This document shows positions 56,074 to 57,989 of a DNA stretch of 64,000 bases, one piece after another. Origin of the DNA: Aminomonas paucivorans DSM 12260 (lineage in GTDB: Bacteria > Synergistota > Synergistia > Synergistales > Synergistaceae). Within the stretch, counting starts at the first letter, position 1. Each line of letters starts with the position of its first letter. Made by a program: the position numbers and the translations under genes. The stretch lies in contig NZ_CM001022.1 of assembly GCF_000165795.1 (NCBI RefSeq), positions 2,203,812 through 2,267,811 of the forward strand, given 5' to 3'. Below the pieces are notes generated by a model. The model was not told the origin of the DNA and made no database searches. It worked only from the letters and a program-made list of their open reading frames with translations.

Positions 56074-56194
56074 CCCCATTTCACGGGCTTCCGGAAACCC
56101 CGGAGCGCCCCATTCTCTCCGATCCACCCAAACCCCCGTTTCCCGCAAAAACAAAAGATGAATCCCCGTTAAAACACTGCACTTTCAAACCTTC

Positions 56195-56223
56195 TCGACG
56201 ACTTCCTCGGGTATTTCTAAAAT
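56195..56223 (+). promoter_or_regulatory. Candidate promoter of the AGCS symporter leader
   Basis: TCGACG (56195-56200), 17 bases, TAAAAT (56218-56223; five of six consensus bases). Transcription from here gives a leader of about 400 nt before the ATG at 56634. Confidence 0.5.
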
Positions 56224-56229
56224 GGGAAC

Positions 56230-56633
56230 AATCGCACAATCTCTTCCCACGGGAGAACCGAAGCAAGGGGGAGGGTTGCCCATGTCCCGCGGAACCGTTC
56301 CGATCACTTCGATCCCCTTTCGTCCCTGAACCGGAGCCCCACGGCCGAGTTCGGCCGGGTCTTCGTCGTCCTCCGTCCCTTGGGCGGCTGTCTCGCACCC
56401 CTTCCTTCCGCGTTCCCGGAGAAGGGGCATGATGGGTTTTCCCCTGTTACCCCAGCTCTGAACCGCCCCTCCTCGGCCGAGTTCGGCCGATCCGGGGGGC
56501 CTGCATCTTCTGCACCCTCTTCCGAGGGGAGACCCAGCGGTGCCTCGGACTCCCGCGGCACCCCTCGTGGTTCGATGCCCAGCTCCAAGCGCGGAACGCG
56601 GCATCGAGGTTTCCTCGTAAGGAGGCGCAGGTC
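56230..56633 (+). promoter_or_regulatory. Long structured 5' leader of the AGCS symporter gene, possible cis-regulatory RNA
   Basis: About 400 bases without a convincing gene. It holds two copies of a 32-base element (see repeat). A nested stem pairs CGAGGGG near 56521 with CCCCTCG near 56560 around GGTGCC/GGCACC, and CGATGCC near 56572 pairs with GGCATCG near 56600. A small TTCCT/AGGAG hairpin could hide the ribosome site AAGGAGG just before the start codon. No known riboswitch consensus, including glycine, was recognised. Regulation of alanine/glycine uptake by this RNA is inference. Confidence 0.5.
56326..56489 (+). repeat. Imperfect tandem duplication, 132-nt period, in the AGCS leader
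   Basis: CTGAACCG, eight variable bases, then the palindrome CGGCCGAGTTCGGCCG occurs at 56326-56357 and again at 56458-56489 with identical internal spacing. Similar blocks follow both copies (GCACCCC-TTCC-TTCCG against GCACCC-TCTTCCG). The palindromes would form 7-bp hairpins. Confidence 0.75.
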
Positions 56634-57989
56634 ATGGATCTTCTTTCCTTGGTACAGGACATCAACGGCATTCTGTGGAACTACGTTCTCATCTTCCTTC
56701 TCTGCGGCACGGGAATCTACTACACCTTTCGGCTCCGGTTCGTGCAGGTCCGGCTCTTCGGAGCCGCCTTCAAGAAGGCCTTCGGAGGCCTGAATCTCTT
56801 CGGCGAGCGGGCGGGCAGCGACGGCATGTCCTCCTTCCAATCCCTGGCCACCGCCATCGCCGCCCAGGTGGGCACGGGGAACCTGGCGGGGGCAGCCACG
56901 GCCATCGCCATGGGAGGCCCCGGGGCCATCTTCTGGATGTACCTGGCCGCGTTCTTCGGCATGGCCACCAACATGGCGGAGGCCATCCTGGGTCAGGTCT
57001 ACAAGACCCGGGACGACCACGGACAGATCACCGGCGGCCCGGCCTACTACATCCGGGACGGCTTCGGCAGCCCCGCCCTGGCGACGTTCTTCTCCGTGGC
57101 CATCATCGTTGCCCTGGGCTTCATCGGGAACATGGTGCAGTCCAACTCCATCGCCGACGCCTTCCACACCGCCTTCGGGGTGCCCCACCTGGGAGTCGGG
57201 ATCGCTTGTGGTCTCCTGGGCGCCTTCATCTTCATCGGGGGCATCGGCCGCATCGCCTCGGTGACGGAGAAGATGGTCCCCCTCATGGCAGGGCTCTACC
57301 TGGTGGGCGGTCTGGGCATCCTGGTGTTCCACGCGGGAAGCCTGATCCCCGCCATCAAGTCCATCTTCATCGGGGCCTTCGACCCCGTAGCCGCCACGGG
57401 AGGCATCATCGGCGCCACGGTGAAGCAGGCCATGCGGTATGGCATCGCCCGAGGCCTCTTCTCCAACGAGGCAGGCATGGGCTCCACCCCCCACGCCCAC
57501 GCGGTGGCCAAGGTCCGCATGCCTGCGGAGCAGGGGCTCATGGGCATCGTGGCGGTGTTCATCGACACCTTCGTGGTGCTGAACATGACCGCCCTGGTGA
57601 TCCTCTGCACCGGCGTGCTGGACGGAAAGACCACGGGCATCGCCCTGACCCAGGCGGCCTTCACCGTGGGCATGGGCGCCTTCGGCAACCCCTTCGTGGC
57701 GGTGTGCCTGCTCTTCTTCGCCTTCTCCACCATCGTGGGGTGGTACTTCTTCGGGGAAGCCAACGTGAAGTACCTCTTCGGCACCAAGGGGCTCATGCCC
57801 TACCGGATCCTGGTGGTGGGCTTCATCATCCTGGGGGCCACCCTGAAGGTGGACCTGGTGTGGGAGCTGGCGGACACCTTCAACGGCCTCATGGTGCTGC
57901 CCAACCTGGTGGCCCTCATCGGGCTGTTCAAGGTGGTGGCCAAAGCCGTCTCGGAATACGAGGAGGACGGCAAACTGAAGGCTCACTAG
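56634..57989 (+). CDS. Alanine/glycine:cation symporter (AGCS family)
   Basis: A 451-aa membrane symporter importing alanine or glycine with Na+ or H+. AGCS signatures are strong: SSFQSLATAIAAQVGTGNLAGAATAI near residue 64, GGPGAIFWMYLAAFFGMATN near 92, RGLFSNEAGMGSTPHAHA near 275 and STIVGWYFFGEANVKYLFG near 365. GTAAGGAGG precedes the ATG. The gene has an unusually long leader and its own terminator. It complements the NSS carrier in amino-acid uptake. Confidence 0.95.
   Translation: MDLLSLVQDINGILWNYVLIFLLCGTGIYYTFRLRFVQVRLFGAAFKKAFGGLNLFGERAGSDGMSSFQSLATAIAAQVGTGNLAGAATAIAMGGPGAIFWMYLAAFFGMATNMAEAILGQVYKTRDDHGQITGGPAYYIRDGFGSPALATFFSVAIIVALGFIGNMVQSNSIADAFHTAFGVPHLGVGIACGLLGAFIFIGGIGRIASVTEKMVPLMAGLYLVGGLGILVFHAGSLIPAIKSIFIGAFDPVAATGGIIGATVKQAMRYGIARGLFSNEAGMGSTPHAHAVAKVRMPAEQGLMGIVAVFIDTFVVLNMTALVILCTGVLDGKTTGIALTQAAFTVGMGAFGNPFVAVCLLFFAFSTIVGWYFFGEANVKYLFGTKGLMPYRILVVGFIILGATLKVDLVWELADTFNGLMVLPNLVALIGLFKVVAKAVSEYEEDGKLKAH

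Follow-up and report, generated by a model that had tools for sequence, protein, structure and literature searches.

TnaC-type leaders are stop-codon stalling leaders. The first of two short upstream ORFs (uORFs) in the leader described here resembles them in ending with Arg-Pro-stop and in being followed by a C-rich region, whereas the second uORF and the uORFs of relatives have no terminal Pro and the peptide is not conserved. The ilvB-II RNA motif of Corynebacterium turned out to be a uORF attenuator (PMC10272879), and like it the present leader has a single-copy, gene-specific element with a short ORF before an amino-acid gene. It differs from ilvB-II in having two uORFs and a duplicated stop-hairpin cassette, and in having neither diagnostic amino-acid enrichment nor an intrinsic terminator. 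The mgtQ uORF unmasks the ribosome-binding site (RBS) of a transporter gene, with acidic residues destabilising the ribosome (PMC8092293). Both have a short ORF in a transporter leader, where a stem may mask the RBS and alternative folds are known for mgtQ and predicted by inspection here, but mgtQ is a single, unduplicated uORF with acidic residues, whilst neither of the two uORFs here encodes one. The glycine riboswitch (RF00504), which in Streptococcus also lies ahead of alanine/glycine:cation symporter (AGCS) genes (PMC5829553), shares with the leader a tandem arrangement and an AGCS target gene, as in other bacteria, although the leader has no match to its covariance model.

The symporter gene and its predicted leader

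The window analysed here is a stretch of 64,000 nt, corresponding to positions 2203812-2267811 in a genome that forms one contig of 2,630,170 bases. A preliminary description of this DNA had proposed a leader with a 132-nt tandem duplication before an AGCS gene. The identity of that gene was confirmed by matches to PF01235 (E 3e-136) and TIGR00835; its orthologues in other genera are 77-78% identical at the protein level and, among the five AGCS paralogues of the genome, it is the nearest to those orthologues. The locus is flanked by genes for a diguanylate cyclase with a solute-binding domain (upstream) and a ferredoxin (downstream). The features referred to below are as follows.

56195-56223, plus strand: predicted sigma-70-type promoter, TCGACG-17-TAAAAT, matching the consensus at 9 of 12 positions
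56270-56274, plus strand: Shine-Dalgarno-like GGAGG, 7 nt before uORF1 (direct sequence reading)
56282-56329, plus strand: uORF1, ATG to TGA, encoding MSRGTVPITSIPFRP, its stop inside repeat copy 1
56326-56357, plus strand: repeat copy 1, CTGAACCG-N8-CGGCCGAGTTCGGCCG
56342-56357, plus strand: hairpin/palindrome of copy 1, CGGCCG-AGTT-CGGCCG, local z -0.9 and not exceptional
56418-56421, plus strand: Shine-Dalgarno-like GGAG, 7 nt before uORF2 (direct sequence reading)
56429-56461, plus strand: uORF2, ATG to TGA, encoding MMGFPLLPQL, its stop inside repeat copy 2
56458-56489, plus strand: repeat copy 2, of the same pattern
56466-56497, plus strand: extended hairpin of copy 2, CCCCTCC-TCGGCCG-AGTT-CGGCCGA-TCCGGGG
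56497-56510, plus strand: possible anti-Shine-Dalgarno stretch GGCCTGCATCTTCT, pairable with 56620-56633 at 13 of 14 positions
56620-56625, plus strand: AGGAGG, Shine-Dalgarno sequence for the symporter, 8 nt ahead of the ATG of that gene (direct sequence reading)
56634-57989, plus strand: AGCS gene, 451 aa

The promoter match that had been claimed was present (0 such matches expected in shuffles), with a poor -35 element, and sits in an AT-rich trough (GC 0.42 over 56140-56229 versus 0.68). Because of this match and its setting, and despite the -35 element, a leader of about 400 nt before the symporter gene, with a start predicted near 56230, is plausible. No intrinsic terminator or terminator-like T-run was found inside the leader; its C/G ratio reaches 1.78, a value near the 95th percentile for the window and not enough to decide for a Rho-type C>G bubble. 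The possibility that the leader is a long protein-coding region was rejected, as both candidates, a frame-1 ORF running through the two repeats (LNR..AEFGR) and a 139-aa reverse ORF, had neither codon bias nor a Pfam match.

The repeat and the two short upstream ORFs

The 32-nt element was found twice in the leader exactly as described, its copies being identical at 27 of 32 positions and spaced 132 nt apart. The best-repeat score of the leader was 22, against a shuffle mean of 10.7 and maximum of 17 (0 of 500 shuffles as good), making this the strongest repeat among 126 leaders, each 120 nt or longer, that were sampled with a crude gene caller from the window and a further 400 kb of its genome (20 stretches of 20 kb). 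The second-best repeat in this sample, which scored 19, is the pattern TTCGATCC-N4-GGGGGGTGCCG, occurring twice, 204 nt apart, in the divergent promoter region between a putative hutH and an AGCS paralogue at L166:13845-14206 (G000:C1). A genome-wide search with the full 32-nt element, allowing up to 3 mismatches, recovered only the two leader copies.

Read from the sequence, the 8-nt and 16-nt blocks of the two copies match at 24 of 24 positions and the N8 spacer at only 3 of 8, a pattern of conserved blocks and free spacer that argues for constraint and against recent copying. The larger duplication was not borne out: the sequences on either side of the repeats resemble each other no more than expected by chance, the supposedly similar following blocks being matched by 362 of 500 shuffles in global alignment and 158 of 500 in local alignment, and the preceding blocks by 204 of 500. 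The repeated core consists of a simple 6-7 bp palindrome and an 8-nt tag, and each copy opens C-TGA-ACCG.

At the head of each copy, the UGA terminates an ATG-initiated ORF that is led by a Shine-Dalgarno (SD) sequence and has no earlier in-frame stop. The leader contains four ATGs, of which three belong to uORF1 or uORF2. When the repeats were kept in place and the intervals shuffled, SD-led ORFs ended at both repeats in none of 4000 shuffles with ATG starts only, and in 13 of 4000 (0.3%) with ATG, GTG or TTG starts; this test was devised after the sequence had been seen, and the result is therefore a good lead and not proof. Across the sampled leaders, stops of SD-ATG uORFs are rare, at 0.06 per 100 nt, with two such stops in only 3 of 126. 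A stretch CCGRAG(C)AAGGGG precedes both uORF start codons, at a level not above chance. The two peptides are dissimilar to each other and to those of the Thermanaerovibrio uORFs; neither contains a diagnostic amino-acid run (one Gly each, no Ala), and no conserved stalling peptide was found among uORF1, uORF2 and the uORFs of relatives.

A hairpin, CGGCCG-AGUU-CGGCCG, begins about 12 nt past each uORF stop. The segment CUGAAC, which holds the stop codon, can form five Watson-Crick pairs and one G-U pair with GUUCGG, comprising the hairpin loop and 3' arm; by inspection, this pairing and the 6-bp hairpin are mutually exclusive, an arrangement that would lend itself to regulation by a ribosome positioned on the stop codon of the uORF. 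Only the copy 2 hairpin was unusually stable among the folds of the leader (z -3.2). Compensatory outer stems between the copies were rejected, the outer stem of copy 1 being at chance level, and covariation between the copies is unmeasurable because the two hairpins are identical. The fold hiding the RBS that had been suggested did not rise above chance (whole-leader z -1.84), and the anti-SD stretch was rejected as a significant feature of this leader, since a duplex between RBS and leader as good was formed in 178 of 500 shuffles.

Orthologous leaders and glycine riboswitches in the Synergistales

No copy of the element was found before the orthologous gene in 100 other Synergistales genomes, all from other genera, and elsewhere in these genomes the 32-nt pattern gave only scattered matches with 3 mismatches. 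A comparison of the leader DNA with 60 relatives returned one chance 26-nt match beyond its own genome and no homologous leader. The preliminary description had staked its reading on conservation in relatives' leaders, and as far as these leaders allow the point to be tested there is none.

Three Thermanaerovibrio-type orthologues are among the closest by protein (76-77%). Their leaders contain, in order, an SD, a short ORF ending in TGA (starting with ATG in one and TTG in two), a hairpin and an RBS-complementary stretch, the TGA being invariant between variable flanks. Sequence identity between these leaders and that of the window was no better than in shuffles (57 of 150). A joint fold of window positions 56398-56650 with the three leaders reached -28.2, versus -20.1 +/- 4.4 in shuffles, and was equalled by 6 of 150 shuffles and by 2 of 65 other leaders of the genome (p about 0.04, for a segment picked by eye and four sequences). 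In this fold 7 of 28 pairs have changed on both sides, with 0 of 500 shuffles of the paired letters as good, as scored on a structure derived from the same four-sequence alignment. These results are suggestive of an analogous, diverged leader layout in the Thermanaerovibrio orthologues. The folds that follow the uORF stop in relatives are unexceptional (z +0.2 to -1.5), and for two of the three Thermanaerovibrio-type leaders few shuffles formed an RBS duplex as good (15 of 500 and 14 of 500).

Other conserved segments were observed in these orthologous leaders. The Thermanaerovibrio-type leaders (L088, L090 and L091) share a conserved CCTCCCT segment capable of forming 8-16 nt of duplex with the RBS, a candidate for a translational switch of its own; a Thermanaerovibrio leader used as query against 53 genomes of the family matched only in two of its own genus. 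In six of seven genomes of a Dethiosulfovibrio-like genus, the orthologous AGCS leader is conserved over a block of some 75 nt, GCAAGACTT-N10-GGAATA-N3-GGTTC-N-TTT-N-TCATTCC...GGTGTAGAAT...GTGAAGG (L086:2413-2652, minus strand; L087, L089, L094 and L095:2905-3144, minus strand; L093:1201-1440, plus strand). This block occurs once per genome, solely in the AGCS leader, has no Rfam match, and contains a stem that changes from AGGAAT/ATTCCT to TGGAAT/ATTCCA (A-U to U-A). The Pyramidobacter-like orthologues (L100-L104) share a different conserved segment, GAGCTTTTCACAACTTTCTGCCCAAAGTTTGTGC, at about -110 to -60 relative to the gene, and each genus therefore has its own leader type.

The reported absence of a glycine-riboswitch consensus from the leader stood up to the RF00504 model. 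Rfam searches detected no glycine riboswitch in the whole window at the gathering score, or in the leader alone at E values up to 10, and nothing sensible at the leader in either case. The same model identified one glycine riboswitch in this genome (G000:C1:1715893-1716006), approximately 0.54 Mb from the leader and 7-9 kb from another AGCS paralogue. In two relatives (G003 and G005) a glycine riboswitch lies directly upstream of an AGCS gene, so relatives use it for this transporter family, which is not the case here. The present leader does lie upstream of an AGCS gene, and glycine riboswitches are expected before gcv or glycine/alanine transporter genes, but such a context does not suffice by itself. 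At two of the Dethiosulfovibrio-like loci (L093:2979-3069, plus strand; L095:1276-1366, minus strand) a glycine riboswitch was observed immediately 3' of the AGCS orthologue, where it seems to serve the gene that follows, and SECIS_4 elements upstream of the AGCS gene suggest a glycine-reductase neighbourhood.

Proposed control by the uORFs and competing explanations

The best single explanation, which we hold tentatively and place somewhat short of an even chance, is that this lineage-specific leader acts through translation of a uORF-stop-hairpin cassette present in duplicate. Transcription from near 56230 would yield an RNA with the two short uORFs, each with its own Shine-Dalgarno sequence and each terminating at the UGA within one copy of the cassette, which comprises the stop codon in CUGAACCG, an 8-nt spacer and the hairpin CGGCCG-AGUU-CGGCCG. 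We infer that the uORFs are translated, and a ribosome ending or pausing on one of them would cover CUGAAC and the spacer, thereby deciding which of the competing folds forms in response to whatever signal is sensed. The choice of fold would set symporter output through the downstream RNA, either by pairing of the anti-SD (56497-56510) with the RBS (56620-56633) or through access for Rho; as the leader has no intrinsic terminator, output would be translational or Rho-dependent. We know of no exact precedent for a two-step attenuator built from a duplicated cassette of this kind.

The repeat may instead comprise paired transcription-factor operators, in which a protein would bind the dyad CGGCCGA-GT-TCGGCCG at two sites 132 bp apart and act by repression or looping, perhaps with the CTGAAC/GTTCGG half-sites also part of the bound site. 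The dyad is perfect in both copies (7-bp arms, 2-nt centre), and conserved blocks about a free spacer are in keeping with such sites. Paired near-identical 23-nt elements, 204 nt apart, also accompany another AGCS paralogue (L129/L166), where the gene that we take to be hutH is adjoined by one with a presumed GntR-type helix-turn-helix, both names having been assigned by reading translations and not by family search. We regard operators as possible but doubtful, in that the 18-mer has only three further matches genome-wide at up to 3 mismatches (all with 3, the same as a reversed-pattern control), no regulator gene adjoins the symporter locus, where the neighbours are the diguanylate cyclase and the ferredoxin, both copies are downstream of the sole promoter match, and the uORF stops are left unexplained. 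That the repeat is a functionless local short duplication, or a chance repeat in GC-rich leader DNA, is unlikely. Its absence from relatives, the modest whole-leader fold and the score of 19 already attained by the second-best repeat in the sample are all consistent with this; the repeat is nonetheless too good for chance against 500 shuffles, both of its blocks align with uORF stops, and a neutral copy should scatter its mismatches and run past the blocks, contrary to what was observed in blocks and spacer.

An RNA-binding protein that recognises the duplicated hairpin and so controls the leader is quite improbable: hairpin, loop and 5' tag are identical in both copies and the copy 2 hairpin is stable, but no candidate gene lies nearby and, with only two element sites in the genome, such a protein would serve one mRNA alone. 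The earlier proposal of a riboswitch of a new type, whose two aptamer domains would sense an amino acid, accounts for a long leader, two copies and an amino-acid transporter downstream, and in relatives some AGCS genes are indeed preceded by glycine riboswitches. It is unsupported here because there is no Rfam match and the element is absent from the rest of the genome and from the orthologous leaders of the 100 genomes. In addition, the module, a tag with a 6-bp hairpin, is far below the size of known aptamers, the blocks outside it are not duplicated, and in both copies the 8-nt tag holds the stop codon of an SD-led short ORF. We consider this proposal very improbable, and see just as slight a chance for a new, lineage-restricted class of leader RNA that senses an amino acid through two domains acting together, each a tag-plus-hairpin module. 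From the earlier reading, a cis-acting leader is still the likeliest class, whilst the two-domain aptamer found no positive support.

If uORF-dependent control is correct, an amino-acid fermenter would regulate an AGCS transporter by translated mini-ORFs where some of its relatives use a glycine riboswitch. The locus also counsels caution, in that two small ORFs can have their stop codons in a repeat that resembles tandem aptamers. The orthologous AGCS leader is of a different type in every genus that was compared (Thermanaerovibrio-like, Dethiosulfovibrio-like, Pyramidobacter-like and the present one), and such genus-specific leaders provide a useful case for the evolutionary replacement of leader control.
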